A stretch of DNA of 64,000 nt from Mesostigma viride (Eukaryota > Streptophyta > Mesostigmatophyceae > Mesostigmatales > Mesostigmataceae). The notes below the pieces were generated by a model, which worked only from the letters and a program-made list of their open reading frames with translations, was not told where the DNA came from and did no database searches. The position numbers were made by a program, and so were the translations under genes. Positions 3,775 to 63,995 of this stretch are shown here, one piece after another. Each line of letters begins with the position of its first letter. Within the stretch, counting starts at the first letter, position 1. The stretch lies in the NCBI GenBank assembly GCA_009746045.1, contig RPFO01000313.1:184001-248000 (forward strand), read 5' to 3'.

Positions 3775-3853
3775 GGTTGATCTGGGTCTGGGTGTTGTCT
3801 CTGGGGTAGTCAGATGAATGTCTCTGCTCCTCAAATGCAGGGTAGGCATCAAA

Positions 3854-3865
3854 CCTCCGATACCA
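3854..3865 (-). other. Primer binding site (initiator Met-tRNA type)
   Basis: The minus strand reads TGGTATCGGAGG directly after the LTR end, one or two bases from the TGGTATCAGAGC type common in Copia elements and complementary to an internal part of initiator tRNA-Met. It separates the LTR (3866-4609) from the gag leader and fixes the element as minus-strand. Confidence 0.75.
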
Positions 3866-11030: not shown

Positions 11031-11035
11031 CGGGG
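11031..11035. repeat. Target-site duplication (left), CGGGG
   Basis: CGGGG at 11031-11035 recurs at 18345-18349, immediately outside the two LTRs. This is a 5-bp duplication inside the gypsy RNase H sequence, as expected for an integrase-mediated insertion. Confidence 0.85.
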
Positions 11036-11478
11036 AGTTAATAAATGAGTGGACCTCTCAATGCTCAATGGCCTAACGCATGTGTTTATTACAATAAATC
11101 ACAAGCCCCGCACCCAACGTGCACAAGGGCATTTAGCATTGTCGACAAGCAACGCTCTGCCTGGCCGCCACGTCTGGAGCAGCCGACAGTGGCCGTTGGG
11201 CTCTGTGGTGCAGCCTGAGTGGCGCGACGCCACTGCTAGACTCTCAGGACCTTAGTCCAACGTCCGACACCTCAATGTCAGTCCCGAGTGGGTACTGGCG
11301 ACGCCGTACCGCCAATCCTACTTGGGTACTGGCGTCCGTCACCAGGACTCGGCTATCGAATAGTCTAGCCTGCCGAATCACATATAGCCGGGACTTCTGA
11401 CCGAGCCTACACGTGCGAAACCCCAGATAGCACATTGCTATCTGGTACTTAGCCTATGTCCACGACTAGAGGCTAACT
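11036..11478 (-). repeat. 3' LTR of Copia-like element
   Basis: A 443-bp LTR, almost identical to 17902-18344; the T/C difference near 11046 is one I can see. The ends are AGTTA and TAACT, an inverted pair, not the usual TG...CA. A run of about two dozen T's follows at about 11491-11515, which on the minus strand is a purine-only tract in the position of a polypurine tract. Confidence 0.85.
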
Positions 11479-11847
11479 CCAGTTTTATTCTTTTTTTTTT
11501 TTTTTTTTTTTTTTTAAGGCATCAGTGCTGCACCTCCAGTTTTTATTCCTTTTTGTTTTTTTCAGGTACTTGGCAATATCATGAATAAGACATTGGTACA
11601 GGAAAACTCATATCAGACCACAATGGACGTTGTGAATTAAAGCGCCCACAGACCCCATTGCCTTTAAATCTGACAGTGTCTTTGAGGTTTCTGAACCTAG
11701 GATCCCCTGTTTGTACAAGTCAGTGGAGTGATGAGTGGCTATGGAAAAACCAGGGGGCACATCAAGAAATTATTATGTTTGTTGCCAAGTTGCCACCAGC
11801 TGGGAAAGACCATAGTCTGCACCATTAGTCTGGAGTGCCCTATTTCA

Positions 11848-14499
11848 TCATCCATTTGTCTGACTAGACAGATAGGGATTCATTGCATCACACAGAAGCT
11901 GGTACTGGGTTGCTGCTAATGACGGAATCTTGGTCAATGCGTCAGCCAGGTTCTCCTCGTCTGGCAGATGCTGCCAGCTGGAAAAATAGCTTGTTTCCTG
12001 TTTCAAAATCACCCAGTCCAGATCAGTATGCACAGCAGCAGTCACAGATTTCTTGTTAAGGAAACTAATGACTGACTGACTGTCAGTGTGTAAGTGAGCA
12101 TGCACATCAGCCTTGCTGCCAGCCTGAGTTTGCAACCAGGTTAGTATGTGCTGAAGGGATCGAGCATGCTGCACAGCAGACACCACAGCACGGCACTCAG
12201 CAGAGTTACTGCCAACAGCTTTTCTGCGATGCAATCTGCTGTACCACGACACCATGGACATATAGTCTCCCTTGTTGGTAAGGAAGAACACCCCAGCCTC
12301 CCTGGCATCCATTTTTGTTATTACCCTACTCTCCATGGAGCTGTCCATCAGACAGTTAATGTGAATATCTTCCATGAGGTTGAGTGGATGAATGACAAGG
12401 GAAGGTCCAGCCTTTAGTAGCTTCTGGAGATCCTTAGGTTTCATGGTTTGTAATACTGTGTCATCAATCCTGCTGACCACTGCCAGATGAGGTGCACAGA
12501 TAGCACTCAGCCACCCTAATTTTCCTTTGACAGTAGCACACATGTGAGCAGGAATGCACGGAATATCAAGCAGCTCTAGGCATTCTTCTAAGTACTGGGC
12601 AGGCGGGGATAGAGTACACACCCACTGTTCCTGTTGCTCTTCCAGTGCTAGCATTATGCCACAGAACTGTAGGGGTTCTGGCCCCAGCTCTGTCTGCTTT
12701 CCAATCTCATATGACTGCTGAACCTGCTGAATGAACTTGTCAACTTCAGCTCTTGGTCCACAAATCAGTTGGTCATCACCATGCCACACAAACAGGAGCA
12801 AGCCAGAGGGTGTGGGCACAGCAAAGAGACAAGGGTCCAGATCATCATAAGTGGCATTAAGTTTCTTGAACACCTCTTCTGCTGATTTTCTGAAGATAGT
12901 GGGAGCACTTTGCAAACCTTCCACCCCTAGATTTAGGAGTAGATATGGCTCATCAATATCATGTGCCCATGCAGCAGGGGTGGGAACCACATAGACCTGA
13001 CCCTTCCACACATCTTGCGCTTTATCAGGGTCCCCTCTAAGGAAAGCCCTTTTGATATCAGTAGCTTTGCAGGCATAATCTTGGCCAGCATTGAGATGGT
13101 GGAGGAAGACAGAGAGCAGTATCCTGAGGGATGTTTGCTGCAGCCCAGGAGTGTAGAGTTCACCCTTGGACAGTTTTGACATGCCTTTTAATTCTGTCAC
13201 ACATGGCCTAGCATGATATATAGGTGAGCCTACTGGCTGTGCCTTGTGTTTTAGCACAAACTTGAGTCTCAACTTTTTGGCACCTTCTGGAATTTCCCAG
13301 ACAGGAGTGACAGGTGGCTTATAGTCAGGATGCTTAGGGTTTGGCAGCACCCACTCTTCGCGGGCTTGGTGCCTAATGGCTTGGATCCATTTTTGAAACC
13401 CTTTTTGTGTTTTGCATTGTTGGATTAGAGCATCATAGTTGTGAGGAGAGTGCATGGCTAAGTCCCACTTTCCAACCCCAAAGGACTGCGGGTGTGGCCT
13501 TTGATTGTGCACCTTTTTCTCTAGGTCAGGGATTTCACCTGGCCCATATTTGATGTTAATGGCCTTGATATAGGCATCTAATCCATGAACCAGTTGGGAC
13601 AATGGAATCTTGTAGTGATCCAAGGGAATGGCTCCTACCCCAGTCACACGCAGCTGGCTAGCAGTGATGGTGACACCTGGGTAAGAGATAAAGGGTTCTC
13701 CCAACAAAGCATTGCCCATGTACCCTTCCACTACCTGGAAAGGTGTCTGGATGCCAAGTATGGGGATCATTACTTGACCCAACACATCTAAGGTTGTTTT
13801 GCCTGAAAAATCTTGCACCTGTGTCCATGGTGAGGGTGCAAGTTGCAGACCAGGAATGGCTTGTGCACTGATCACACTGACCTGTGCCTGAGTGTCCACA
13901 GCTAGGATGCAGGATTCCTGGCTATAATCGGAGCACACAGCAGAGACCTTGGCCAAACCTGAGGCTTGTTTAGCCTTGCTCTTGTGAGCCTTATGCAGAG
14001 CTGCCAGGGCTTTTTCTAGCTTGGATTTGAACTCAGCTGGATTGCCTTTGTTTTGCTCTGGTACCTCATGCCTGGTTGAACTCTGCCCAGAGGGACTTAC
14101 ACCAGGTTGTGGGGTGACACGTACCTCACTGAGGGGTGGAGGAATGACAGAGGGTGTGGTAGTGCCATCATCAGCTCCTGGTGTTGGAATGCTGGGTGGT
14201 TCTGCTTGCTCACCAGAGTTAAGGAGGGAATCCATGTTCAAGGACTCTTCCCCTGGCACGTCTGCCAAAGGAGGGAAATACTTCTTAACTCTATGACTGC
14301 TCACCCTGTGTTTTCTCCCTGTTTCCAAACTTCGAATATCCATATTTTTTCCTTTTTTGGTCATTCTTAGAACAGTGCACGGACCATACCACATGCCTGT
14401 CTTGCCATGTTTGGTTTCTTTGAAATATAGGACTTGTTCACCCAGTTGGAATACTGTTCTGGGGTGTGTTATGTCCTTTTCAGCTAGCTTATCAGCCAC
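11848..14499 (-). CDS. Copia-like Pol: integrase C-terminus, retropepsin, RT, RNase H
   Basis: An 883-aa frame. Residues about 15-75 are an integrase C-terminal domain (VFQLGEQVLYF, MWYGPCTVLRM). Residues about 200-300 form a retropepsin-like domain: AVDTQAQVSVIS, then NALLGEPFI. RT follows with KLRLKFVLKHK, ATDIKRAFLRG, a diverged LGVEGLQSAPTIF equivalent of the Copia YGLKQ box, and FVWHGDDQLI as catalytic box. RNase H has CLMDSSMES, SAECRAV, HTDSQSV and NLADALTK. It overlaps the upstream frame by 16 nt in the -1 frame and has no convincing ATG at its start (the first codon is GTG). The related element at 60289-62928 reads through the same point in one frame, so this looks like a single-base lesion, though -1 recoding is not excluded. 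The product would be the replication enzymes of the element. Confidence 0.88.
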   Translation of the reverse strand: MADKLAEKDITHPRTVFQLGEQVLYFKETKHGKTGMWYGPCTVLRMTKKGKNMDIRSLETGRKHRVSSHRVKKYFPPLADVPGEESLNMDSLLNSGEQAEPPSIPTPGADDGTTTPSVIPPPLSEVRVTPQPGVSPSGQSSTRHEVPEQNKGNPAEFKSKLEKALAALHKAHKSKAKQASGLAKVSAVCSDYSQESCILAVDTQAQVSVISAQAIPGLQLAPSPWTQVQDFSGKTTLDVLGQVMIPILGIQTPFQVVEGYMGNALLGEPFISYPGVTITASQLRVTGVGAIPLDHYKIPLSQLVHGLDAYIKAINIKYGPGEIPDLEKKVHNQRPHPQSFGVGKWDLAMHSPHNYDALIQQCKTQKGFQKWIQAIRHQAREEWVLPNPKHPDYKPPVTPVWEIPEGAKKLRLKFVLKHKAQPVGSPIYHARPCVTELKGMSKLSKGELYTPGLQQTSLRILLSVFLHHLNAGQDYACKATDIKRAFLRGDPDKAQDVWKGQVYVVPTPAAWAHDIDEPYLLLNLGVEGLQSAPTIFRKSAEEVFKKLNATYDDLDPCLFAVPTPSGLLLFVWHGDDQLICGPRAEVDKFIQQVQQSYEIGKQTELGPEPLQFCGIMLALEEQQEQWVCTLSPPAQYLEECLELLDIPCIPAHMCATVKGKLGWLSAICAPHLAVVSRIDDTVLQTMKPKDLQKLLKAGPSLVIHPLNLMEDIHINCLMDSSMESRVITKMDAREAGVFFLTNKGDYMSMVSWYSRLHRRKAVGSNSAECRAVVSAVQHARSLQHILTWLQTQAGSKADVHAHLHTDSQSVISFLNKKSVTAAVHTDLDWVILKQETSYFSSWQHLPDEENLADALTKIPSLAATQYQLLCDAMNPYLSSQTNG

Positions 14500-17400
14500 T
14501 TTAGCCTTACTGTGTTATACAGAGCTAATACCTCTGGAGGGTACACACCTGCCTGTAAGCCAATGGGAAGGATTTCCCCCCATGGTGCATGCAACACAGG
14601 TCTAAGGTTAAGTGTAGCACAGATTTCACTGCACCACAGTGCTCTGTCAGCATAGCTTCCAGATGTGGCTTTCAGGTCAGTGGATTTCGCCACTAAAGTT
14701 TTGACTGACCTGATGGTTCTTTCAATGACACCCTGCCCTTCATGATCTTGCAATCCAGCAATCTCAATATTAGCATCCCATCCTTCACACTCAGCCAGAC
14801 AGCTAAACTGTTGATCAAGCAGTATAGTGTCAACTGGGTAGAATCTGGGCAATGCTATCACAAGTGCTGCACGCAGTTGCTCTTTAGCCATTCCAGGTAG
14901 GGGTTCCATGACAGTGAATCTGGACCATGTGTCTTTTAGGATCAGATATTGTTCACCATCGATATGCACGACATCACCCACAATTATTCCCCTTTGGGTG
15001 GGTGGTGTTGCGACATGCCATTTGGGAGGTTTTGGGCCATGGAACTGACATTGCTGGCAGTGTTTTCTAGCCAACCTGACAGCATTCCTGAGTCGTGAAC
15101 CTCCTGCTCTTCTGGCAATCTTTTCTGCCACCACCTCATGACCCATGGCTATGTGGAGCTGGGTTGCTAGTTCCCTTAAGTCTACTGTGTCAACAGCAGC
15201 TGGGGTAAGAGCTTTGAGGTAGGGCAGTATCACATTATACGTGGAGGAGATTTTCTGAGCTGCCTCAAAATCTAGCAGTCCCTTGTCTTTATCCCCAATG
15301 ATAATGAGATCATATAAATCCACATAGGCGTGCTGTGAGGACGTACATCCTTTTGGAGCCTTGTCCTGCCGGTCGCACCACGTGCCGGGGGGCAGATGGC
15401 GGGGGTGCTTGCAACCGAAGCAGAGGTCCACGTCGCCTACTGCGGGGTTCCACTTGCAGTCCGCCCGCTGGTGTCCCTTGGTGCCACACCGGGTGCACTT
15501 GTTCTTGGGACCTGCATGGGGGGGCTGAGCAGTGGGTGCAGGGGTGGGTGGGGCAGGTGTGGGGGGGGTGGGCCGCCTCCACTGGTTTGGCTTGAGCTGA
15601 GCAGGCTGTCCCGGCTGGCCTTGGGGCTGGTTGCCCTTGGCCTTCTTGGACTGGCCGCCCTGCTGCCCCCCTAGCTGGCGCTTTTTTCCTTGCCCCTTCC
15701 CTTGGGTCTGTTGGACCTTGGGGGTTGGGGTTGCAGACGGAGCACCTATAGCCAGGGGAGTCAGGCAGTCTTGGATATGGTTCATCCCCGCCCGGAAATC
15801 GTTCCACAGAGGTTTGAGACCTGCAACCACAGTGGCGTACACAGCTTTGTCCAGGTTAGCATTTGACAACCATGAATACAGCAGGTAGCTAGCAGGCAGA
15901 CCCCTGAGATCAGGGTCCTTTTCTACAGCCAACCTATAATTCTTGCAATCAGTGGCATAGTCTTGCTTGTTGACCTGGTAAGCATTAAGCCAGTTGAAAC
16001 CACGGATGGATTCAAACTGTGTCCTATCCACCAGCAAGTGCTTAAGCTCATCCATGAAGGCTGGCCACAATGCAATTGCTAGGTTAGGTGTCCCAGCCTT
16101 TTCTTGGTAAATCTGGACCAAGGTTTTAATGGCTGGGGCTGACCTATGGATGGTGGTGGATGCACGCAAGGCACTGAACCAGTTCTGGACATTCAGAGAC
16201 TCAAAACAGTAGTTCAGGCTAAACAAAAATTCCTTGGCCTGTTCCTGGGTGTAACCCTCAGGTAAGCCAGGGATTTCTATTTTAGATTCTTTTTGTTTTG
16301 GGTTAAACGTACCTTTGACCGGGTCCTTCTTTTCAGCCAAGAAAGTCTTGACTGCTTGTTGAAGATCAGCCTCCTCCATGTTCGCCCTGCCCCTTTCCAG
16401 CTGGGAGATACTGGCCAGGAGGCCATCCAGCTGGGTGCGCGACAGGTCGTCCATGGGGTTGGTGGCCATGGTCTTGAGCTGTGCCGTGAGTATGGCAAGC
16501 AGCTCTTGGACGTCCCCCTTAAGGGTGGGTGGGGTTGGGTCCACTGGGGTCCCTTTTGCCACCGCCTTGCTCTTATCTGACTGCCCTGGTGTGGGTGCAG
16601 TCTGCTGGGCCTCCGCAGAAGGTGGTTGTGTTCCAGCTTGCTGTGCTAGTGCAGTGGCTGGTGGTGTTCCAGCTGCAGGCGCAGGGTCTTGTTCCCCTTG
16701 CCTTACTCCACTGCTGGTAGGAAAACCCTTGGCCTGGCCAAGCTGCTGCAGCGCTGCTGCTTGGGCTGCCAGGCCGCCCTCACGGGCTATCATGGCCTCT
16801 AGGAGTTTATTCTCCACCACCTTGCGGCGGTGGAGCTCCTGGGCATCCGGGTCACTTGGGGGTTTGCTGGGGGAGCTGGGGACAGTGCCCTGGCTCTTGC
16901 CCTGCAGCACCCTTGGTGACACGGCCCCTCCAACCACCCTTTGGCTCAAATCAGTGCCAGGGGTGGGGAGGGTATGTGCAGGGAGTGCAGGCGTTTCTGT
17001 TGCCTGCATCTTCTCCTGCAGCTTGGTCAGCTGCAACAGGAGGGAATTGAGTTGGTCCGCTGTTAGCGTGACCCCCTCGTCCCCCTGTGCAACAACCAGC
17101 TCATTGAAGAGGCGCTCATGGAGCACCTCTCCAGCTTGCATGGCAGCCAGCTGCTTTTCAGCAGTCATGTTGCGGGCCGCTGTCTTTTTGCGGTCCCGCT
17201 CTTGCTGTGCAAGACGGCGTGCCTCTACAAACTGGGCGGCGGCCTGTTCGACCGCCTGATTGAGTGGATTCATCTCAATCTCCCCATCAGAAACCCCTGG
17301 GGAGAGGGTGACCTCGTCATCAGACAGCTGAATGCTGCCGATGACGGGTCCTGGGACCTTCTTGGTCCGCATTTTGAACATGTATGCGTCCCTCTTCAGC

Positions 17401-17870
17401 TTCCTCTCGTACCCCCCCGCTTTCTGAGCGGATGAGGGGACGATCGGCACCCCCGCTTGTTCTCCACCGCTTTTGGCTATTCCGCCCTCCTCCTGAGGAG
17501 GTTGGGACGGTGCCTTAGCGGGGAGGTCAGCGGGGCTTGCCTGAGGGCTGGGGGACCGCATACTGCTTACGGATTTTTGCGAGCTAGCTGGGCTAGAAAA
17601 AACAGATTTTTCGGCCTGTTCGGCCAAGGAGGTTACCTGTTTTTGCAGGGCTGCCAGCTGCCGCTCTTGGGCGGCTGCCTTGACGCTTTGCTGAGCCATC
17701 GCTGTCGCTAGCTGCCTAGCCACTAGCTGTTCCTGCTCCGCCTGCGCCCTTCTTGCTTTTTTAATTTTCTTGGCCGCAGCCTTCTCCTCTACTGTTGGCA
17801 CCGTCTGCCAGCCAGCATCATCTATCCGCTTCTTTTTGAATTTCAGGCCTGGCATAATAGGATCTCCCAT
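14484..17870 (-). CDS. Copia-like Gag with zinc knuckles and integrase core
   Basis: A 1128-aa frame from an ATG (MGDPIMPG) about 30 bp inside the 5' LTR/PBS. The first 450 residues are basic, Ala/Gln-rich and coiled-coil-like. A Gag core follows around residues 540-720, with FNWLNAYQVNKQDY and LLYSWLSNANLDKAV. A Gln/Pro-rich basic stretch leads into a CCHC knuckle (CTRCGTKGHQRADC) and a second Cys cluster (CFGCKHPRHLPPGTWC). The integrase has an HHCC-like region (HIAMGH ... CQQCQ) and a core with VVHIDG, LLDQQF and GVIERTIRSVK as candidate D, D and E regions. The frame stops just before the integrase C-terminal domain, which continues in the overlapping downstream frame. Confidence 0.88.
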   Translation of the reverse strand: MGDPIMPGLKFKKKRIDDAGWQTVPTVEEKAAAKKIKKARRAQAEQEQLVARQLATAMAQQSVKAAAQERQLAALQKQVTSLAEQAEKSVFSSPASSQKSVSSMRSPSPQASPADLPAKAPSQPPQEEGGIAKSGGEQAGVPIVPSSAQKAGGYERKLKRDAYMFKMRTKKVPGPVIGSIQLSDDEVTLSPGVSDGEIEMNPLNQAVEQAAAQFVEARRLAQQERDRKKTAARNMTAEKQLAAMQAGEVLHERLFNELVVAQGDEGVTLTADQLNSLLLQLTKLQEKMQATETPALPAHTLPTPGTDLSQRVVGGAVSPRVLQGKSQGTVPSSPSKPPSDPDAQELHRRKVVENKLLEAMIAREGGLAAQAAALQQLGQAKGFPTSSGVRQGEQDPAPAAGTPPATALAQQAGTQPPSAEAQQTAPTPGQSDKSKAVAKGTPVDPTPPTLKGDVQELLAILTAQLKTMATNPMDDLSRTQLDGLLASISQLERGRANMEEADLQQAVKTFLAEKKDPVKGTFNPKQKESKIEIPGLPEGYTQEQAKEFLFSLNYCFESLNVQNWFSALRASTTIHRSAPAIKTLVQIYQEKAGTPNLAIALWPAFMDELKHLLVDRTQFESIRGFNWLNAYQVNKQDYATDCKNYRLAVEKDPDLRGLPASYLLYSWLSNANLDKAVYATVVAGLKPLWNDFRAGMNHIQDCLTPLAIGAPSATPTPKVQQTQGKGQGKKRQLGGQQGGQSKKAKGNQPQGQPGQPAQLKPNQWRRPTPPTPAPPTPAPTAQPPHAGPKNKCTRCGTKGHQRADCKWNPAVGDVDLCFGCKHPRHLPPGTWCDRQDKAPKGCTSSQHAYVDLYDLIIIGDKDKGLLDFEAAQKISSTYNVILPYLKALTPAAVDTVDLRELATQLHIAMGHEVVAEKIARRAGGSRLRNAVRLARKHCQQCQFHGPKPPKWHVATPPTQRGIIVGDVVHIDGEQYLILKDTWSRFTVMEPLPGMAKEQLRAALVIALPRFYPVDTILLDQQFSCLAECEGWDANIEIAGLQDHEGQGVIERTIRSVKTLVAKSTDLKATSGSYADRALWCSEICATLNLRPVLHAPWGEILPIGLQAGVYPPEVLALYNTVRLKWLIS

Positions 17871-17882
17871 GATTTTGTCTAT

Positions 17883-17901
17883 GGTAAACGACTTTAATTC
17901 A
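17883..17901 (-). other. Presumed primer binding region, tRNA not identified
   Basis: The minus strand directly inside the 5' LTR reads TGAATTAAAGTCGTTTACC. It does not look like the initiator-Met type found in the 1-4641 element and does not begin with TGG. A different or internal tRNA site may be used. Confidence 0.35.
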
Positions 17902-18344
17902 AGTTAATAAACGAGTGGACCTCTCAATGCTCAATGGCCTAACGCATGTGTTTATTACAATAAATCACAAGCCCCGCACCCAACGTGCACAAGGGCATTT
18001 AGCATTGTCGACAAGCAACGCTCTGCCTGGCCGCCACGTCTGGAGCAGCCGACAGTGGCCGTTGGGCTCTGTGGTGCAGCCTGAGTGGCGCGACGCCACT
18101 GCTAGACTCTCAGGACCTTAGTCCAACGTCCGACACCTCAATGTCAGTCCCGAGTGGGTACTGGCGACGCCGTACCGCCAATCCTACTTGGGTACTGGCG
18201 TCCGTCACCAGGACTCGGCTATCGAATAGTCTAGCCTGCCGAATCACATATAGCCGGGACTTCTGACCGAGCCTACACGTGCGAAACCCCAGATAGCACA
18301 TTGCTATCTGGTACTTAGCCTATGTCCACGACTAGAGGCTAACT
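17902..18344 (-). repeat. 5' LTR of Copia-like element
   Basis: A 443-bp copy of 11036-11478 with the same AGTTA/TAACT ends, followed by CGGGG (18345-18349). It is the 5' LTR for the minus-strand genes and should carry their promoter. The two LTRs have the same length and near identity, so the insertion is young relative to the decayed gypsy host element. Confidence 0.88.
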
Positions 18345-18349
18345 CGGGG

Positions 18350-23525: not shown

Positions 23526-23538
23526 ATGGCGCACCTTT

Positions 23539-26500: not shown

Positions 26501-27867
26501 GTTGGTGGCCACGGTGGTGTGTAGTACGACCGCACTCCCATGCTAGCATTTTGCTACCAAGGCCCAGTCCTATTTATAGGACTGGCAGTGTTTTGCATGT
26601 TTCAGGCAGTGCCAGTGGCCGAATTGAGTCCAGTTTTTTGCCACAGTTCAAGAACTCTATTATCTACATGCCTATGATTTTTAATAGTGAATATGGATTT
26701 TATTGGATTTTACACACTCGTGTTTCCACAGAAAATTTCAAAATCGCGAGTAAGGGTTGAGACTCATGTATAATTTTACATGATTTGGTCAACATATGAT
26801 TTTTTAAGCATATGCCCAAGCATTAGCATGATATTGAGTGCTATGATGCATATCAAACATATGGGGTACCCCCCCCCCCTTACCGCCACATGATCTCAAA
26901 GATGGTATACTCAGTCCTATTTTTAGGACTGAGTAATTACAAACGACGTGTTAACGAGAAAGAGCACGGCGGGGTTGAACCTGGCTACCGCCTGGCCGAC
27001 CTGATTTATGCGGATGACACCACCCTCATCGCGCGCCCCGAGCACATTCAGACCTGGCTGGACTGTCTGGGCCTGGAGGCGAGGGCGGTGGGGTTGGAGA
27101 TTAGTGTCAAAACTGAGGCGATGGTGATTGGGGCCTCCAGTACACCGCCGCTGCCGCGCCTCCTCGACGGGACGACGGTCCCGTTCCGCAATCGCTTCAA
27201 ACTGCTGGGGAGTTGGCTCCCTGACACCGCCGACGATGTGGACACCCGCATCGGCCTGGCCTGGGCTAGGCTTCATTCGCTCAACACCTACTGGCGCTCC
27301 AAGGGCCTGGGCGAGCACCGCAAGCGCATGCTCTTCAAGGTCCTCGTCCTCACGGTGCTCACGTATGGCGCCGAGGCCTGGACACTCACACCCACACTGG
27401 CAGCTAGGCTAGACGGCACAGTTTACAGGATGCTCCGACAGGTCCTGAACGTAGGGTTTTCCAGGCGACCATCATCAGAGTCTTTGTATCAGGGCATGCC
27501 TCGTATTTCGGACGAGATTAGACAGCATAGGATAGCATTTGTAGGACACCTTGCTCGCACCAGCCAGGTCGACACCGCCCTTGGTCTGGCAGGCCCCCAG
27601 CGGCTTGGCCAGCCAGGGCGGCACATTCTGACCTGGCCTGGCCCCAAGGGCATTGCCAAAAAGGTCGGGAAACATGTCACGAACTACGTACAGATGTTGC
27701 TGGATGACCTACTGGTCCCAGCCCAGTTTGAATACCGCATCCACTCTCTCTCCCTTCTTTGGACTGCCATTCAGAACAAGACGCGGTGGAAGAAGATTGT
27801 CAAGGCTCACACGCCCGACCCTGTGGGCAAGCCACCTCCCCCCAAGAGGAGGCGTTTTGATGAGTAG
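23539..27867 (+). pseudogene. LINE ORF2: endonuclease C-terminus and RT, split by transposon
   Basis: The frame starts inside the endonuclease (GMVAVNCHFQR, CLDYVVVRQP, and VCSDHRLVRA as the S-D-H motif). A Pro/Ala-rich spacer leads to RT: KELDGALARLRYDAAVGADH, MLYKKGSAADPGNYRGVCL and SQMGFRRGRNT. A one-base loss near 24940 shifts the frame to FVDYIKAFDTV. The next pieces are GVWQGCVLSPYLF and, beyond the insertion at 25232-26950, YRLADLIYADDTTLIA (intact Y-A-D-D), LGSWL and the C-terminal region ending PPPPKRRRFDE. Deleting the transposon plus one TTAA joins the two RT halves in frame. The gene would supply nicking and reverse transcription for target-primed insertion, but is now inactive. 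GC-rich codon use contrasts with the AT-rich transposon inside it. Confidence 0.88.
25232..26950. mobile_element. TTAA-target DNA transposon, family 1, copy 2
   Basis: Ends CACGTCGTTTGTAA / TTACAAACGACGTG, flanked by TTAA at 25228-25231 and 26951-26954. It has the same organisation and interior as 5896-7614, including the AGGACTGAGT hairpin motifs next to the ends and the frame at 25826-26218. By my count it has the same length as copy 1 (1719 bp). It is inserted in a coding codon of the LINE RT, so both boundaries and the target duplication are fixed by the host frame. Confidence 0.85.
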
Positions 27868-49000: not shown

Positions 49001-50155
49001 CTGCCAGCATAGCCCCTTGGGTATTGTCTAGCCCTTCCTTGGTTGAGACGTGCCTGGCAACATCATGGAAGGATATGGGGCTTTCAGTGGCAACATCGTG
49101 GAAGCTCATCCCCAAACTGTCAGGGGTGAGGGCTTAAGGGGTGAGAAGATCGCGTGCAGGAGGCATTTCAGAATCCTTGTACTCTACCCCTTTCATGGCA
49201 GCCACCATAGGCAATGAGAGACCCCGAGCAGCGACATCGAGGGAAAAATTATTCAATCGCATACAGCCAAACCCCGCTCGGGACAGCTGTGTGCTGCTCA
49301 CTGTAACCCCGGGTAGCGTCAAGAACGGCTGCCCTAATAAGGCGGGCCCATCATACCCCTCTACCACACACATGGGCGTGTCTGCGCCGAGTATGGTTAA
49401 TAAGGGAAATTCCCCCAGGACCTTGTAGGACCCTGACCTAGCAAAATCAGTGACCTGAGTCCAATGAGAGGGCAGCAAAGGAAAGTCTACACAATTGGCC
49501 CCGATAATAGAGACCTGGGCCTGGGTATCAATGAGGAGCCCACAATTCAGCGCCCTAGCGGTTAACAAGGAAGATATGACTGCAGTGCTCGGGCCCAGCT
49601 GAGGGGGGACGCCTGCAGTCTGTGGTGGGTTGCTCAGCAAGATTGTTCTAGGGCTGCGCCGGGACAATAACATGGGGTTAGTAGGCTCCCTTTGCCGCCC
49701 ACCACAGACTGCAGGCGTCCCCCCTCAGCTGGGCCCGAGCACTGCAGTCATCTCTTCCTTGTTAACCGCTAGGGCGCTGAATTGTGTGTGGTAGAGGGGT
49801 ATGATGGGCCCGCCTTATTAGGGCAGCCGTTCTTGACGCTACCCGGGGTTACAGTGAGCAGCACACAGCTGTCCCGAGCGGGGTTTGGCTGTATGCGATT
49901 GAAAAATTTTTCCCTCGATGTCGCTGCTCGGGGTCTCTCATTGCCTATGGTGGCTGCCATGAAAGGGGTAGAGTACAAGGATTCTGAATTGCCTCCTGCA
50001 CGCGATCTTCTCACCCCTAAAGCCCTCACCCCTGACAGTTTGGGGATTAGCTTCCACGATGTTGCCACTGAAAGCCCCATGTCCTTCATGATGTTGCCAG
50101 GCACGTCTCAACCGAGGAAGGGCTAGACAATACCCAAGGGGCTAGTATGCTGGCT
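49001..50155. repeat. Large inverted duplication of a protease-containing fragment
   Basis: The left arm is about 49001-49629 and the right arm about 49698-50155, with a 68-bp spacer. The arms are reverse complements over most of their length, except that the right arm lacks the counterpart of about 49371-49540. The inner ends are CGCCTGCAGTCTGTGGTGGG and its complement. Confidence 0.85.
49134..49673 (-). pseudogene. Retropepsin-like domain of Copia-like lineage (left arm)
   Basis: A minus-strand frame of 179 aa with LLIDTQAQVSIIGANC, WTQVTDFARSGSYKVLGEF and GPALLGQPFLTLPGVTVSS. It aligns along its length with the protease regions of the elements at 11848-14499 and 60289-62928. The D-T-Q-A motif is intact. 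No RT follows in this orientation; the frame ends where the arm ends. Confidence 0.7.
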
Positions 50156-51980: not shown

Positions 51981-53505
51981 CTATGGCCGCCCGTGTAAGG
52001 GGTCCATGAGCCCACGGAGCAGGGGGTACTGCCGCTCCGCCTTCTCCTCCAGCTTGGTGAGGGCATCTGCAGGGTTATCCACACCAGGCACATGTTCAAT
52101 GTGAGCTAGGTAGGACATCTCCTTGAGCAACAAGTAGTCAAGGTCCCTGCTCCTGGCCAGCTGCCTGTGCACAAATTGCACCATGCCCATGCTATCAGTC
52201 CTCACCAGTGTGTGCAGCTGCAACCTACAGGAAGCCACTTGACATAGCTGGTAGAAGAGCTCCCTCAAGTAAAGAGCAGTATGCAGCCCTTCACAGATTG
52301 CCCTGCACTCAGCAATATCACTGCTGGGTGTAACCCTGTTCTGTAACCGACTGTACAAGGTAACAAGTGAGGTGTGATCTTGCTCCAGGGTAACTAATGC
52401 TGCTGCCCTGCCCCTGACCTCTGTGACCTTCCTATTGTCCATAGAACTGTCCACATAGAGGATCATGTCAAGGGGCTTGTACAAATCCACAGGACCCAGT
52501 ATAAGAGGGGGAGACATCATGACAGCCTGCACCACACTCTCAGCACCCACCTCAACTAGCTGGGAATCAGTAAGTCGACTCAATACCAGCAAGTCAGGGG
52601 CACATATACTTGCAAGCCATGCCAGCATGCCCCTGATGGTAGCACACATAGCCTGCGTGATGGGCTCCTGCAATGCGTCTACAATCTGTTGTGGATAGTC
52701 CTTACCACCCTCCATCTTGATGAACCACGAGCCCTTGGCTTGGAACAACGTAGCCTGCATGCCACAGAAGACCATAGGCTCATTCTCCACCATGTGCTGT
52801 ATCTTACCCAGCTCAAACCGCTTCTGGATCTTGGCCAAAACAGCCTCAACCCAGTCTGGTGGACCTATGAGATGCAGGTCATCACCATGCAGTGAGGCAA
52901 AGACAGGGAGGCCATTGTGGGACCCTTGGAACAAACAGGGATCCACTGGAGACACAGAAAACCCACAAGTATTCTTCAAGAATTTCTCTAGGCTCTTTCT
53001 CCAGATGATGGGACTGGACCTGAGACCTTCCAACCCTTTTAGAATTCTCAGGTACCTGGCCTTTATCTCTGCTCTCCATACAGCAGGTACAGTCACAAAG
53101 AAAGGATCGAGGGATATCTCTCCAAGTCTGCCTAGCCTGGTCCTGGTCACCCTTGAGAAAAGCCCTCTTGAAATCAATCAGCACAGAGCTATAGGGCACA
53201 CCCTTAACCAGGAAAGACAGAAATATACACAGCAGAATCCTCCACGTGTCATGCAGCATCCCTGGAGTATAGAGCTCCTCATCTAACAACTGGCCAGTGC
53301 CATGATACTCGGTTACAACTGGTCTGACATGTGGCACCTGGACACCATCTACCTCCTTGAGCTTGAGGACAAACATCAATCTGAGCAGCTGGTGAACTTC
53401 TGGCAGCTCATCCACAGGCTCTGCACAGTTGGAAACTATCCACTCATGCCCAGAAGCAACAAAGCCAAGAGTCCATGCCTTAGCCATCTTGGGGCTTTGC
53501 ATCAT
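51981..53505 (-). pseudogene. RT and RNase H of a third Copia-like lineage member
   Basis: Minus-strand. The upstream frame (53505-52882) has WIVSNCAEPVDELPEV, RLMFVLKLKEVDG, RPVVTEYHG, ELYTPGMLHDTWRILLCIF and VLIDFKRAFLKGD. A frameshift near 53120 passes to the 398-aa frame with GLEGLRSSPIIWRKSLEKF, DPCLFQG, FASLHGDDLHLIG, MCATIRGMLAWLASICAPD, ILYVDSSMDN, IAECRAICEGL, VRTDSMGMVQF and NPADALTKL, ending at 51981. The catalytic box is H-G-D-D, as in the other two members. There is no integrase or protease beside it, so it is a 5'-truncated element. Confidence 0.82.
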
Positions 53506-54240
53506 CTCGACTAACTGGCGCCAGGGAATAGGACTGTGAGCAGCTATCTGGTACCTGTTTACCCCTAATTACTGCCGTGGATCAAAAATGGTTGGGATGA
53601 TCAACAGGTCCTCAGCTATGGGCTCCTGACCTTGGGGACCCTCTACTTGCTGACTCTTAACAGCCTTCACAGTTATTCTAGGGCTTCAGGCCTAGACTAT
53701 CAGTACACGTGGCGTTGTCCCCGTCTACCAAGTGGGATACGGACATGGACGGTAGTGTAGTACACTGGACATATCTCTACTAGGATTTAGATCCGCACGT
53801 GCCATGTTGGGCACGTGGGTGCTAGATATTAGCACTGAGATATGTAGGGCACACGCACGTGGGTATTCACGTGGTAGGGTTTATGAGCTGTGATGCAGAC
53901 CACAAGGTGGTTGCAGTGCTAGTCCTGTACGGAGGTCCTAGGGGAGGTCCAGGACCGTCCACGTAGTGCTGCTAGGCAGTCGTTGCCTGCGGGCATCGTA
54001 TCAGTCCTAGCTGGAGTAGATCTAGCTGGACGGAGCCAGCACCTCATTGGTTAGCACTAGTGCAGGATAGCTAGGTTACCCTAACCTACGTGCCCATGCA
54101 ATCCAGCTTGGCAAGCTTGCATGGATTGATATTATGCCAGCCATTGCATAATCCAACACACGTTCGCTTCCATTGCACAAGTGCATTAACTTTCATTAAT
54201 AAAAACTCTCACGGTTTTTATACTACTCTATCATCGTAAA
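53506..54240. other. Non-coding region, probably LTR/leader of the following element
   Basis: About 735 bp with no frame of interest. It contains several CACGTG-type motifs near 53800-53870 and an AT-rich stretch just before the first Gag ATG at 54241. As the 3' end of the plus-strand element lies at or beyond the window edge, its LTR cannot be confirmed by comparison. Confidence 0.35.
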
Positions 54241-56681: not shown

Positions 56682-59600
56682 AAATGTCCTCATTTGAGGA
56701 CATAGTCCTCGTTTGAGACGGGGGGGTTCAGGGGCGTGGTTTTGGCGCCAAATTTGGTCCTAGGGTCACTTGGTGGGTTTTGGCGCGAAACTGGGATAGG
56801 TACTGAGCGCGCCAAGCCCCTGGGGTCGACAGGGGTCGACCGTACCTGGAAAATATGAGGCGACGAAAAGTACCTACAACAGCAAGAACATCGCAATGCA
56901 ATCGAGTGTTTCGTCGAGTGGCGGCTATGGGGTCGTGCCAGTTCCGAGGCTTGCTTGAATGTTATAGGGCATTATTTTGCCCCGGACGAAGACAGCATTT
57001 TAGATCGTCATCTAGTGATTTCGAAAATGCTATTCTTCACGTGCAGGTGCTTTGTATATGTCGAACATTTTGTTCATGAACGGATTTTGGCATTGTTGAA
57101 GAAAATCTGAGAGCTACGTAGATCGCATGATAGGTTAGTTCGCAGTTCGGTTTTACAATTTCTTTTTCCGCCCAGGCGCTGCGGATATCGCGAGTATGGG
57201 TTATGGTACGCTTCTGGGCTTATGGGCGACATGGGGAGAAGAGGGACCTGGGCAGTTGCATGCGTCAAAGAGTCTCTATTTTTTCGTCGTGATGTCGCAG
57301 TCGCGCCTGGCGAAAACCAGGGCGAGCGCGAGCCATATTTTTCTTTTGCCGCGAGGCTGGGTGCTTCCCACGCGTCACCGTCCTTTAATATATATTTCTT
57401 GAGCTGGCCCGCGCAGCTGGCGGCCTGGGCGCACGTCAAGAACAAGGTTCCGACTGTCATTCTCAACCGCATCGTTCTAAGTAAGCGTGTTGAGCGGATT
57501 GTAACCTGTAACTCCCGCAGGCGTGATAATTCCGGTTGCTTTCAATGCCCAACATCGTGGTTTTGATTACGTTTATGCCCGGGGAATAACGGAAGTTTGC
57601 TGGGCAGTACTTTCTTTTTCCCATTGCGTCACTGAAAAGGTAAACGGCCTTGCGTTATCAAAACAGCAGCAAGTAGAAGTCGCTGTGCTTAATTGCGATG
57701 TGGTAGTTTGATTCAACACATATACTGCCTTGTTGCTGAGAAGTTTTTCAAGGCTTGCTGGTATGTTGCCCATATGTTTCTAATGCTTCAACTCATGTCC
57801 AAGTGATCAAGACTGGCTTGGAAACTTGAGCTTGTCATGTTTACATTGTGCTTGTGTTACAACTTGTGCCTCTTTGCAGTATATCCCCTAAATGGTCTTG
57901 CGGCCGATTTTCCGCCAAAAATCGAGTTCCAGCCGATGCATCGGCCCCTTCTCGGGCGACCAAATGCCGCGAAAACTATTGAGAATTAGGAAAAGTTTAG
58001 CTGAGAAGATCGAAAGTTTATAAAATACTCTAAAGCATGGTATATGGGTTTGCATACTTCTGACAAAGTTATAGAGGTGTTCTGGCCGGTCAAAGTACAA
58101 GGGGTCAGGGTACTTTTTCACGTACAACGTGCATTCCGGAAAACGACGACCTGGCCATGGCGGCTTGCGCCCACGCATGGCATTTACGTTTTCGTTCGAA
58201 TTTTCTGACCAAACTTAGGATATTGATTTTATACGTCCTAAAGATCATACAGGCCAATTTCTGGTTCGCGGGAATGCCATTTGATAGGTGTCGGCAGCGT
58301 TCTTGCTGGAAAAAACTGCGATCAGGCCGGACGATAGAAACGTTGACAGCAATACCTTTCCGGCGTATTTTAAAGGATATATCGGTTTCTTTATACTTTT
58401 TATGATACATAGTAGTCGTAAACGTGCAAGGGTGGCCAGAAATCGCCGAATCCAGCGACCATGCTGCACAACTTTGGTGTGCCGAAATGCGCCATTTTGC
58501 GGCCACCGCCTGGGCCAAGGTAACGCCATCCATGCCTGGTAAAGCTTAAGCATCGTTTTCCTATCGATGTTTGACGTTTATATATACGTTCTAGCTTGTG
58601 TAGCACATTCTTTTTGCATTATTCATGCTCTTTCTTGACCCTGGCCTGGCCCCTTTCTAAAACACCCTTCTTAGATGCTTCCCTCAGTCAGTTGACCTGC
58701 CACAGGGTGATGGTGATAAGTTTTAGAGGCTGTATGGGTTTGAATACCTCCATATATGTTTGTTATACATTTCCCATACACATATTGCATGAGTGTGAGG
58801 CAGTTGGCTGGTCGCTGTGGCATCATCAAGCACGTAACTGGTGAGTAAAAGCTTCCCATTGACAGCATGTGCCACCAGGTGTGCTGGCCATCACCTGGCA
58901 AGCTATAGCAGCTTAGGCCTAGTTTATCCTTGCTAGGGCAGGCTGAAATAGGCTCAACATCACTAGTTTGTTGGTGGCTGCCTCCTAGAATGCATGCCTT
59001 GCGTAGGGTATCCGTACCACGTTACCTACGTGCATGGACAAGGTAGCACCTGCACATAGGTGCCATGTAAGGGCAGTGTGATGATGCAGTTATGTTCCCC
59101 ATCATTGTGGAAGGGAAATGTATTGTTTGGCATGGTTGGTGGCTATATTAGTAGGTAGTATGCCCACCCCTACCCCCTTGGTTGCTTTTTACCAACGGTA
59201 CCCCTATGGGCTGTACTGGGTGTAACTGCTGGTATACCCACCCAAATGATGACCCCAATGGCTCAAACTGTTCAGCAACTAATTGTTTATCATCCCTGAA
59301 GTGGTAGGTGCCTAGGTCTTATAACATAATTCAAAATGCACATTCTACCAAAAATGAAAACGCGCGTCTTGACCCCCCTGACTTTGACGGCAGTTATACA
59401 TGGCCTACCCTGCATATATGTGAGGTTGTGATATACCAACCCGAAGGGCAACTCATGGACATGCTTGGCCCCCAAGGACAGCCATTGGATATGGGTAGGT
59501 TGGATGGCATCTGGTTTGCAAAATTGTGAAGATCCAGCCGATTTATCGGCAGGATCTCAGACCATTTAGGGGATATGTTTCATATATAACGTAAGGGTTC

Positions 59601-60103
59601 AGCATCATGGTTTAGCACCGTGGTGGCAGCCGAGCCTCTACTAACGATCATGGACCTAACCTTGGCAAGTATTTGCTTCATATTTCACTCTTTGGACTGA
59701 GCTAGCTTTACACCTGCTGTTTGGCCTGCACCATGGTCCCTGGCTGCCAGTTACATTTTGTGCCCCCCCCTGGCAGGCTGCAGGGTCTAGGACTGCGAGG
59801 GTGTAACATAGACATGCTGTGGGCACCCTGGGTGCATTTTCAGGACCAGCCATGACCTGGCCATGCCTTCTTTCATGGCATATTGTTGACTTGAGTGCTA
59901 TTTGGTCACTCGCGTAGCGACCCCCCTGCATTCATAAATTGTAAACAATTATACAATGATCATATTTCATGCATGTTAAGCATTGCAACTCTTGAACATA
60001 TCATAAATGAACATGGTTCCATACCGTACCCATGGATTTGTTGACATGTGTGAGTTATTACAAATGGTATCCATCCTTAAAAATGTCCTCATGTGAGGAC
60101 ATT
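56682..60103. mobile_element. DNA transposon with self-complementary ends, inserted in Gag of element D
   Basis: A 3.4 kb insertion between the Gag core and the zinc-knuckle coding part of element D. The left end AAATGTCCTCATTTGAGGAC and the right end AAATGTCCTCATGTGAGGAC are each near-palindromic hairpins and match one another, so they also form terminal inverted repeats. I could not fix the target duplication. Interior frames up to 132 codons are unrecognised. A second transposon (57885-59572) is nested inside. Confidence 0.65.
57885..59572. mobile_element. DNA transposon related to family 1 in its interior, with different ends
   Basis: Inverted ends CCCCTAAATGGTCT / AGACCATTTAGGGG, flanked by ATAT at 57881-57884 and 59573-59576. 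Subterminal GCCGATGCATCGGC / GCCGATTTATCGGC palindromes lie just inside. The interior from GGTCAAAGTACAAGGGGTCA onward aligns with 6112 on and 25443 on, including CCATGGCGGCTTGCGCCCA, AAAACTGCGATCAGGC and TTTCTTGACC. No transposase frame was found. Confidence 0.7.
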
Positions 60104-60131
60104 TTCTTGGTGATTAGACATCATCAAGGAG

Positions 60132-60563
60132 GTGGTAGCTCAGGTCAAGGCGGTGTTCAAGGGTCCCCAGCACGGTAAGAAGGCAGGGGGGTCATCCAAG
60201 CAGCAGGGGAAATCAGACAAGGGGGGAAAGGGGAACCCAGGCAGTAAGGCAGGGCCCTCCCAGGGGCCTAGTCAGAAAGGTAAGCCTCATGACTCCACCC
60301 TGTACTGCACCAGGTGCTCATGCAAGGGGCATGAGAGGGATGATTGCTGGAAGGGCAAACCCGAACTTGGATCTGATGTGGATGTGTGCCCAGGTTGCTG
60401 GGAGCCCCGCCACCCGTTACCTGCAGGGGGACGCTGCAACAAGCCCAGGAAGGGAGCCTCGACGGGGCGCCCCACAAAACAAGCCAGCACTCAGGACGAC
60501 TGTAAGTCTCCTGTACCCTGGTTTCTTAATGGCCGTGTACCCTATTTGCTCTGTGTTGCCTGA
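60132..60563 (+). pseudogene. Zinc-knuckle region of element D Gag
   Basis: A basic Lys/Gly/Ser-rich stretch followed by CTRCSCKGHERDDC (CCHC) and a second Cys/His cluster (CPGCWEPRHPLPAGGRC). Both align with the 14484-17870 protein. The frame then ends near 60563 while the integrase continues in another frame, so a shift lies between about 60480 and 60560. Confidence 0.75.
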
Positions 60564-62928
60564 CAGTGAGGAAGTGGATTGGGACCTGGCTTATGACATG
60601 ACGTTAGCACAGGTGGCCCAAGATCCCACTATAGCCTCCTTAGATGCAGCAGCAGATAAGGTTATCTCCTATGCCAGGTTAGCCCAACAGCTACACAAGG
60701 CAATGGGGCATGAGGCAGTGGCAGAAAGGCTGGCCAACAAAATTGATGGCCGTGACCTGGAACAGATGTGCAGGCATGTCAGGAAGCACTGTGAAGCGTG
60801 CCAACTGCATGCACCTAAACCCAAGAGATGGCATGTGGCCACCCCACCACTGGCTAGAGGAAAGCTAGTAGGGGATGTGATACACGTGGTGAAGGACACG
60901 GTGTATTACTTGGTCCTAAAAGATGCCTGGTCTAGGTTTGTGGTGATAGAACCCTTGCCAGGCATGGCCAATGAACAACTGCACAGAGCCCTGCTGATTG
61001 CACTAGCACGGTATCATCCTCAGGAAAAATTAATGCTGGATCAGCAGTTCACGTGGATACAAGATTATCCTGATCTGCCCAAGATAGACATTGCTGGGGC
61101 TCAAGATCATGAACGCCAGGGGATGATTGAACGTACCATGCGTGCTATCAGGGACCTCATAAAGAAAAATGAGTCCAGGACAGCAGAGTCTGGGAGCTAT
61201 GCTGATAGGACAGCGTGGGCAGCTGAGGTGTGCAGAACTCTGAACACCAAGCCCCTCATGTCTTCTCCTTTTGGTGAAATCACATCAATTGGCCTGCAAT
61301 CAGGTAGCTACTCTCAGGAGGTACTAGACCACTACAACACGCAAAGGCAACACTTGGCCAAGTTGCTGGCAAAAAAGGATAAAAGTAATGCCAGGCCTGT
61401 GTTTGAAGTGGGGGATCAGGTACTCTACTATAGGGAGGGGGAAGGGAACAAAGCCCACTCTGGTAGATGGCATGGTCCAGCTGAAATCATCAGGTTGTCA
61501 GAAACAGGTGACACGGTGACTATTCAGCATCACAGAGAGCGAATGGTTGGCAAGCATAGACTGAAGCTTTATTACCCTCCTTTGGCAGACGTGTCAGGGG
61601 TAGAATTCTTGGACATGGATTCAGAGCCTCAGTCTGGTGGGTTGGTCTCACCCAGTGAACTGGCTAGGGACATAGCTGATGCAAGCAACACAACCATAGA
61701 CGCTCCTGTGTTCCTCAGTGGTGCAGCCCCACCACAGCCCACTGGTCCAACTGGGCAGGAGGAACGTGCACTGGATGAGCAGCAGGTCGCTCCTCCCTCA
61801 TCTCAGGAACAGCCACACGAAGCAGCAGATCCTGTTGTCCCCAGGAATAAATTTGCTGAGGCTCTAAAAGCTCTACATAGAGCACACACTGCCAAGGCAC
61901 AAATGGCAGCAGGTGCAGCACAAGTCAATGCTGTGGGTGAATCTAACCAGGATCCCAGTATTCTGGCAGTAGACACACAGGCACAGGTGAGCATCATCAG
62001 TGCACAAGCTGTATCTGGCCTAAGTCTGCAACGCTCGCCCTGGGCTAGAGTGTCAGATTTTTCAGGCAAAACAAAAATGGCAGTCAAAGGCCAAGTGCTA
62101 ATTCCCATTCTGGGTGTGCCCACTCCCTTCCAGGTAGTAGAGGGCTACAAGGGGAATGCACTGCTGGGGGAACCATTTGTCTCATACCCTGGAGTAGTCA
62201 TCTCAGCTGGGAGGTTGAGTGTGACTGGGGTGGGGCAGGTCACCCTGGACCATTTCAAAATTCCTTTAACACAGATCAGTGATGGCCTGGAAGCAGCCAT
62301 CAATGCTGTCAACATAAAATACCTCCCAGGTCAGGAACCCTGTGTTGATTCCCTCATTCATTCTCAGAAGCTACACCCCTCTGCGTTTGGGCTTGGTAGA
62401 TGGGACATAGCGTCCATGTCTCCCTTGTCCTATGATGATGTGGTCAAAGACTGTCAAACGCAGATTGGTTTTCTGAAATGGATGGAAGCCTTTAACAGGG
62501 CTAGAGAGGAATGGGTTTGTCCTGATCCACGTAGCAAGTCCCAGGTACCACCTGTAACACCGATTGAGGCACTGCCACAAGGGGCCAGAAAGCTCAGACT
62601 GAAGTTTGTCTGCAAGCATAAACCCCAGGCAGATGGGACACCTCCCATTTTTCATGCCAGACCTTGTGTCACGGAGTTCAGGGGCTCCACTGAGCTAACA
62701 GAGGCTGAACTGTATACCCCTGGTATTCAGCAGACGTCTCTTAAGGTCCTGTTGGCCACTTTCCTTCACCATCTGAATGCTGGTAAGGACTACGTGTGTA
62801 AAGCCACTGACATTAAACGAGCCTTCCTTAAAGGCAACCCTGACATAGCCCAAAAGGTGTGGAGGGGTCAAGTCTATGTGGTAACACTCCCAAAGTCTGG
62901 TCTGGGGACATCAAGGAACCTCATCTAA
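60560..62928 (+). CDS. Pol of Copia-like element D: integrase, retropepsin, RT N-terminal half
   Basis: The open frame extends from 60289, but homology starts near 60560 (EEVDWDLAYDM). Integrase: AQQLHKAMGHEAVAERL, CEACQLHAPKP, RWHVATPP, GDVIHVV, VLKDAWSRFVVIEPLPGMA, LMLDQQFTW and GMIERTMRAI, then a C-terminal domain with FEVGDQVLYYREG and GRWHGPAEIIRL. After a linker comes the protease: ILAVDTQAQVSIISAQAV, NALLGEPFVSYPG. RT follows: RKLRLKFVCKHKPQ, ARPCVTEFRG, ELYTPGIQQTSLKVLL and KATDIKRAFLKGNPD. Integrase C-terminus, protease and RT start are in one uninterrupted frame, giving direct proof of the INT-PR-RT order. A frameshift near 62900 ends it. Confidence 0.88.
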
Positions 62929-63995
62929 GGCCTAACTTGGGGGTAGAAGGGCTTCAGTCAGCACCTAAAATTTTTAGGCTGTCTGCCCAAGAGGTCTTCC
63001 TGAAGCTGGGGGCCCAGTATGATGATATTGACCCTTGTTTCTTCACCATCCCTCATCCTGCTGGTATGATGATGTTTGTGTGGCATGGGGATGATCAGCT
63101 CATTACTGGTCCCAGGGCAGCTGTGGAGGATTTCATTGCTCAAGTGTCTGCTAGCTTTGAATTAGGCAAGCAGCTGGAGCTGGGGAAAGATCCTGTCAAG
63201 TTCTGTGGCATCATTCTGAACCTGTTTAAGGAGCAGAAGGAGTGGGTGTGTTCTCTCAAAGCATCCCCTGAGTATGTCATGTCTTGCAAAGATGTTCTTC
63301 CCTCTGACATCACTCCTGATCTCTGTCCCACTATTAGGGGTAAGCTAGGTTGGCTGTGTGCCACTTGTGCTCCTCACCTGGCAGTGGTCAGCAGAGTGGA
63401 TGATGATGTCCTCATGGAGGTAGGGTCTAGGGCTATTAAACAGGTGTTGCATGATGGCCCTCCCCTTATTCTTCATGCCTTGGATCTGTTCCAACCCATC
63501 ACATCACATGCATGATGGACAGTTCCATGGAGTCACGGGTAGTCACTAAGGTACAAGCCAGAGAGGCAGGCTCTTTATGTTGTCTAACCCCACTGGCAAG
63601 CAATCTTTGGTTTCCTGGTTCAGCAGACTCCACAAGCGCAAGGCAGTCAGCAGCAATGTAGCTGAATGCCGTGCTGTGGTATCAGCTGTGTTGCATGCCA
63701 GGTACTTGAACCATCTGCTGGTGTGGTTGCAGCATCAGGCTGGTAGTTATGCTGGTGTCAAATCCATCTGCTGACTGACAGTCAATCCCTTCTCTCTTTC
63801 CTGGACAACCCCTTGGCTGTGCACACCGATTTGGACTGGATTGTCCTCAAGCAGGAGTGTACCTATCTGGAGTCCAAGACTCACATCCGAGACCCTGACA
63901 ATGCAGCAGATGCACTCACAAAAGTGCCACAGGCTGCAGGGCCTCAGTACAGAGTCCTATACACGCTGATGAACCCATATAACGGCAGAGGGTGA
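62859..63995 (+). pseudogene. RT C-terminal half and RNase H of element D (frameshifted)
   Basis: The frame from about 62930 to 63515 has LGVEGLQSAPKIFRLSAQEVF, YDDIDPCFF, MFVWHGDDQLITG, VKFCGIILNL, CPTIRGKLGWLCATCAPH and SRVDDDVL. A shift near 63505 breaks the RNase H start (MDSSMESR in another frame). Further pieces are KAVSSNVAECRAVVSAVLH (63577-63774 frame) and AVHTDLDWIVLKQEC with NAADALTKVPQ, ending at 63995. The 3' LTR, if present, is outside the window. Confidence 0.82.

Follow-up and report, generated by a model that had tools for sequence, protein, structure and literature searches.

Introduction

In the available text of a survey of fungal genomes (PMC3248453), the classification of LTR retrotransposons rests on domain order and on reverse transcriptase (RT) similarity, the RVT_2 family is associated with Ty1/Copia, and the integrase of Gypsy elements usually comes last in pol. 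The order of Copia elements is given as GAG-PROT-INT-RT-RH in a plant reference survey (PMC6317226), and an LTR-network study (PMC2774666) names Gmr1 as a Ty3/Gypsy lineage with a Ty1/Copia-like integrase order. As the plant survey states that all elements with an unexpected domain order were removed as likely mispredicted, surveys of this kind may overlook reordered elements.

An element that combines a Copia RT with an integrase located before the protease breaks the domain-order rule of classification. It also offers a test case for the processing of a polyprotein whose protease adjoins RT, and may help to show how such elements swap parts. Here we describe two elements (A and D) found in a 64-kb stretch of DNA (hereafter the window), which are Copia-like LTR retrotransposons by their RT, with a non-canonical domain order.

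Results and Discussion

Element A, a complete LTR retrotransposon

Element A is a complete LTR retrotransposon carried by the minus strand (11036-18344; Table 1). Its LTRs are 443 bp long with a single mismatch between the two copies (the repeat match starts at 11036 and 17902) and, taking LTRs of this length, CGGGG is found at both ends as a 5-bp target duplication. The primer-binding site is placed by its expected position, and no tRNA gene was found within the window. The open frame of ORF1 (17903-14487) encodes Gag, a CCHC zinc knuckle and the N-terminal domain (NTD) and core of the integrase, while that of ORF2 (14514-11851) encodes the integrase C-terminal domain (CTD), a domain marked by the residues D-T-Q-A (hereafter the DTQA domain), RT and RNase H. 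Read 5' to 3', the order is Gag-CCHC-integrase-(D-T-Q-A domain)-RT-RNase H. A search of PDB sequences with ORF1 returned one GAG chain, at E 5.8.

The initial annotation had described a complete element at these coordinates, with this order over two overlapping frames. Coordinates and order stand, with the element on the minus strand, but the frame break calls for another reading. It falls inside the integrase, where element D and a related protein (P0014) are open in one frame, and therefore looks, from this comparison, like a lesion or an assembly error. The native layout probably has integrase to RT in one frame, and we do not regard the two ORFs of A as native. A programmed frameshift between these ORFs was considered and rejected, as no slippery heptamer was seen by eye in the 31-nt overlap.

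Table 1. Coordinates of the retrotransposon features identified in the window.
Feature	Position	Strand	Evidence or remark
Target site duplication CGGGG	11031..11035	.	Flank of element A
Element A, 3' LTR	11036..11478	-	443 bp; ends AGTTA...TAACT
Element A, candidate polypurine tract before 3' LTR	11479..11515	-	Purine-rich: A-run, then GAATAAAACTGG
Element A, RNase H region	11851..12372	-	Motifs and position
Element A, Copia-type reverse transcriptase	12697..13299	-	Pfam RVT_2 36.9 bits (cut-off 31.6); HGDD at 12772-12783
Element A, retropepsin-like domain DTQAQVS...ALLGEPF	13627..13926	-	PF13975 E 0.0035, below cut-off
Element A, integrase C-terminal domain	14215..14514	-	Second frame; homology to D
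Element A, integrase zinc domain (H-x4-H-x26-C-x2-C) and core (D-x52-D-x30-E)	14487..15287	-	Motifs, homology to D; no Pfam match
Element A, CCHC zinc knuckle of Gag	15453..15503	-	Motif CTRCGTKGHQRADC; Pfam zf-CCHC E 0.2, below cut-off
Element A, ORF1 from first ATG: Gag, zinc knuckle, integrase NTD and core	14487..17870	-	
Element A, expected primer-binding-site position, just inside 5' LTR	17882..17901	-	Position alone
Element A, 5' LTR	17902..18344	-	One mismatch to 3' LTR
Target site duplication CGGGG	18345..18349	.	Flank of element A
Fragment C: retropepsin-like domain (DTQAQVS) into RT linker	49026..49604	-	One stop
Second, inverted partial copy: retropepsin-like domain and linker	49788..50123	+	Active site outside copy
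Fragment B: RT and RNase H of related element	51984..53670	-	Two frames; 33-34% identical to A over later piece
Element D, integrase zinc domain and core	60562..61323	+	Pfam rve E 4.8e-5, below cut-off; 49% identical to A
Element D, integrase C-terminal domain	61345..61641	+	Homology to A
Element D, retropepsin-like domain	61945..62244	+	PF13975 E 0.012, PF12382 E 0.21, both below cut-off
Element D, RT linker and reverse transcriptase	62305..63500	+	Homology to A; two frames, break ~62886
Element D, RNase H region	63500..63980	+	Several frames

Position of the protease

Read in its sense frames, A contains the protease active-site pattern a single time, in the stretch that separates integrase from RT. 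Before the integrase, ORF1 shows neither a protease motif nor a match to a Pfam protease family; the earlier claim that no protease motif precedes the integrase, made from the letters alone, is thus borne out in A by motif and Pfam searches alike. The same pattern occurs four times in the whole window, none of them between 50 kb and the integrase of D, and a profile containing the DTQA domain found nothing at 56500-60300, upstream of the D integrase. The window also contains a conventional Copia ORF (1708-3876, minus strand), which matches Retrotran_gag_2 and then Pol_BBD, both above cut-off, and has DSAAS as its protease site. Pfam therefore detects the normal Gag-protease order when it is present. 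As no protease was found in A between Gag and integrase, where canonical Copia elements have it, A is not classed as a standard Copia element.

Reverse transcriptase and RNase H

Both RT and RNase H had been described as Copia-type in the initial annotation. This holds for the RT of A, which passes the RVT_2 cut-off and still scores 32.6 bits when the RT piece is taken alone, but no Pfam RNase H family matches in A. Among the sequences compared (A, the D frames P0004 and P0005, fragment B, P0010 and P0012), A alone reaches the RVT_2 cut-off: fragment B (18.3 bits) and P0010 (26.3 bits) fall below it, and neither the two D frames nor P0012 show any match to this family. For RNase H, fragment B matches RVT_3 below cut-off (E 0.24); a Pfam IMPa_N_2 row on the RNase H region is also below cut-off. 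NCBIfam returned no row that came near its cut-off, and its rows (metallo-beta-lactamase models for the RNase H region, an HPE1-like model for ORF1) were taken as chance matches.

The active loop of Copia RTs is YVDD. It reads HGDD in all five aligned sequences (A at 12772-12783 on the minus strand, fragment B, P0005, P0010 and P0012).

Element D and other copies in the window

Element D has a single frame, open from 60139 to 62928 on the plus strand, that reads integrase (from 60562), CTD, DTQA domain (61945-62244, AVDTQAQVSIIS...ALLGEPF) and the first part of RT, just as first annotated. The first 141 residues of this frame show no match to the Gag of A. D is a decayed copy, since a zinc-knuckle-like stretch (60306-60455) sits in another frame than its integrase and RT changes to a second frame at ~62886. 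A Gag-like ORF (54591-56525, plus strand), 41% identical to the Gag of A over 169 columns, lies about 4 kb before the D integrase.

Identity between A and D is 49% over the NTD and core of the integrase, 52% from its CTD into RT, and 55% in the RT piece that follows. Segment by segment, identity ranges from 44 to 70%, falling to 30% in the linker that joins integrase and DTQA domain, and the homology is far beyond chance (dS is near saturation for this pair, and its estimation failed for two of the seven segments). Fragments B and C carry no integrase information, and C alone of these shows the order from DTQA domain to RT linker. The two partial DTQA copies lying in opposite orientations at 49026-50123 suggest a local inverted duplication.

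Other features of the window include a probable host gene (34300-39343, minus strand; Pfam RRM_1 above cut-off), with a downstream stretch that by eye we take to be PWI-like, so that the gene presumably resembles RBM25. Two ORFs on the plus strand (23470-24993 and 26827-27867) resemble, by eye, LINE-type reverse transcriptases with endonuclease.

Related proteins carry the same junctions

Profile queries of protein sets returned four related proteins and then one more, hence at least five in all (P0010-P0014); an 888-residue query returned no protein at E<=0.001. No relatives were returned from viral contigs, genome contigs or plasmids, by searches that depend on shared words, so that absence there carries little weight. 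Four of the five proteins carry one of the junctions: P0013 and P0014, named as Prorocentrum lima, and P0011 and P0012, named as Mesostigma viride. P0014 is 72% identical to D over 272 columns. P0011 covers the end of the integrase, the DTQA domain and part of the RT linker, and is 43% identical to A (E 2e-79; 345 columns). P0012 takes in the last part of the DTQA domain, RT and RNase H (39%, 640 columns), while P0010 consists of RT and its linker alone. The junction from integrase CTD to DTQA domain lies in one frame in the five sequences that span it (A, D, P0011, P0013 and P0014).

As these junctions are found not only in A but also in D and in four of the five proteins, the reordered elements are to be regarded as a lineage, not as one rearranged copy. 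The initial annotation had reached the same view from the two elements of the window, and proteins named for two organisms now extend it.

P0013 is letter for letter the product of A, except that a 105-nt stretch is missing. This stretch (14020-14124, minus strand) belongs to the linker between integrase and protease, starts with GT and ends with AG in the window, and could be an intron within the element, either spliced or predicted. A scan of the window for what we take to be the dinoflagellate spliced-leader pattern found no occurrence, and P0011, from M. viride, is about as close to D (51%, 333 columns) as A is (53%, 512 columns). Retrotransposons of this kind apparently have an algal host. 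Given the exact match of P0013 to A, the absence of the spliced-leader pattern and the position of P0011, this host may be either P. lima or M. viride, contamination of a culture or of a protein set being possible.

A probable derived domain order

We consider it probable that A and D belong to a group of LTR retrotransposons with a Copia-type RT and a derived common order, Gag-zinc knuckle-integrase-retropepsin-like protease-RT-RNase H, in which one polyprotein is cut by an internal protease, and that this order arose once. Under this model, a single Gag-Pol polyprotein would be made, and its internal retropepsin-like domain would dimerise and cut it into Gag, integrase and RT-RNase H. Replication would then proceed via tRNA-primed cDNA and DDE integration. 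The order would probably go back to an ancestor of A, D and the M. viride elements, in which the integrase may have been moved or captured between Gag and protease, leaving the protease next to RT.

Origin of the integrase

The integrases of A and D both show the motifs of DDE integrases, with H-x4-H-x26-C-x2-C in the zinc domain of each, and D-x52-D-x30-E (A) or D-x54-D-x29-E (D) in the core. Pfam rve matches D below cut-off (E 4.8e-5) and does not match A, and the integrase model (pLDDT 38) gave no significant fold match. The CTD has W-x-GP and an HRxKxY end, which we take to resemble the GPY/F module. Of the six rows returned by a three-row CTD profile, none was significant; the top two were a chimeric HIV-1 integrase (E 0.63) and an integrase chain of 58 residues (E 0.81). 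Judged from these motifs, the CTD looks more like the Gypsy/retrovirus kind than like that of Copia. Thus, the term Copia lineage fits the RT better than the whole element, and it has to be seriously considered that the integrase was captured from a foreign element.

Such a chimera, compatible with the common derived order proposed above, would be a Copia RT/RNase H element that captured a Gypsy- or retrovirus-type integrase before its protease; the order would then stem from this capture and not from an exchange of positions within Copia. The protease-like domain fits this origin as well, its trimmed form in A and D having a sub-threshold match to gag-asp_proteas and none to Copia Pol_BBD, while the conventional Copia ORF of the window matches Pol_BBD. 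On the other hand, Pfam rve alone does not separate Copia integrases from those of Gypsy and retroviruses, and D,D-29/30-E is a shorter spacing than is usual in either of them. On balance, a chimeric origin is conceivable, though less likely than not.

Identity of the DTQA domain

The domain between integrase and RT had been called retropepsin-like. Its position is as annotated, but its family matches stay below cut-off, PDB searches return no protease and its triad is D-T-Q. For the trimmed domains of A, D and P0011, the best Pfam match is PF13975 (gag-asp_proteas), which covers most of the 92-position model with E-values of 0.0035, 0.012 and 0.064, all below cut-off (18.3, 16.7 and 14.3 bits, respectively, for a curated cut-off of 28.2). 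A sub-threshold match to an aspartyl-protease family is therefore seen in three of the four trimmed domains, fragment C showing no match to PF13975 in either form tried. Neither of two hand-reversed controls (A and P0011) matched this family. Whole ORFs gave weaker matches for A (E 0.049) and D (E 0.2), and whole P0013 matched at E 0.016, while whole P0011 did not match PF13975. The D domain also matches PF12382, again below cut-off (E 0.21). The initial annotation had suggested profile searches as a check, and their outcome is mixed: RVT_2 is above cut-off in A, but PF13975 and rve are below it.

Sequence and structure searches gave results that count against a retropepsin. PDB sequence searches returned no protease, two of them giving one row each, a proteasome subunit (E 1.2) and an aminotransferase (E 0.26), and the predicted structure of the DTQA domain (mean pLDDT 48) is too poor to judge the fold. 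With this model, Foldseek gave nothing at E<=0.001 (HIV-1 protease chains account for six among the best 50 of 69 rows, at a non-significant E of 2.5-6.7), and VIA-align returned two rows, neither of them a retropepsin. Aligned with the conventional Copia protease of the window by hhalign, the domain obtained a probability of 1.2%. The likeness to retropepsins is, as we see it, one of a D-T-x-A-x-x-S-x-I-S start, a glycine-containing middle and an A-L-L-G-x-P-F end.

The catalytic triad of retropepsins is D-T/S-G, with a near-invariant Gly. In each of the six sequences that include this site (A, D, C, P0011, P0013 and P0014), it reads D-T-Q instead, the Gln codon being CAG in A, D and C. This replacement of Gly, together with the sub-threshold family scores, would be expected if the domain were a retropepsin descendant that no longer cuts and acts as a structural linker, with a host protease taking over processing or processing not being needed. 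Such a loss is rather unlikely, given that A, D and C share Asp-Thr, DTQAQVS and ALLG-PF without change, that only one of the seven segments compared between A and D is better conserved than this domain (66% identical, with dN 0.25 and a near-saturated dS of 1.9, compared with 50% identity for the integrase core), and that searches of A revealed no further candidate for a protease. Taken by itself, the short active-site motif does not exceed chance expectation in the window (four occurrences, versus a mean of 1.8 and a maximum of 5 in 30 Markov sequences); DTQAQVS has no occurrence in these 30 sequences. We take the D-T-Q triad to be a lineage-specific change in a putative enzyme still under selection. 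If active, this site would challenge what counts as essential in retropepsins.

In a more far-reaching proposal, these elements would form an LTR-retroelement architecture of their own. A Copia RT/RNase H core would have captured, between Gag and protease, an integrase of Gypsy/retrovirus-like type; it would use an RT with an HGDD loop and an active retropepsin whose D-T-Q site has no precedent, and would have spread across distant algal groups. We hold this combination, taken as a whole, to be doubtful.

Has the order been described before?

In the available text of the literature searched, outside which lie Repbase and most subscription journals, we found no description of an order with integrase before protease. 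The initial annotation, which knew of no described Copia lineage with this order, is borne out to that extent. Relatives are present in public protein sets, so that others have had the data, and Repbase, for instance, could already list the order under an algal Copia family without comment; the outcome of the literature search makes this unlikely.

Finally, an assembly artefact or a nested insertion mimicking reordered domains, which the decay of D, its proximity to fragments B and C and the frame break of A might suggest, is largely refuted and highly improbable, as A has matching LTRs and a target site duplication, and the junctions are common to A, D and proteins from other sets at 39-72% identity.

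Comparison with known systems

The DTQA domain is similar to retropepsins (PF13975 and PF12382) in its sub-threshold match over most of PF13975; it differs in having D-T-Q for D-T/S-G, and its retropepsin fold is putative. The integrase CTD presumably resembles the GPY/F-type CTDs of Ty3/Gypsy elements and retroviruses in W-x-GP and HRxKxY. In Ty3/Gypsy and BEL/Pao elements, however, the integrase comes after RNase H, whereas in A and D it precedes both the DTQA domain and RT. The Ty3/Gypsy lineage Gmr1 is an earlier example of an integrase displaced with respect to RT, but it is a Gypsy lineage, while A combines a Copia-type RT with an integrase located before the protease-like domain. Likeness to Ty1/Copia (Pseudoviridae) is seen in several features: A has an RVT_2-type RT, an integrase before RT, and LTRs with a short target duplication, and both A and D depart from this family in having the protease-like domain after the integrase and HGDD instead of YVDD in the RT loop.
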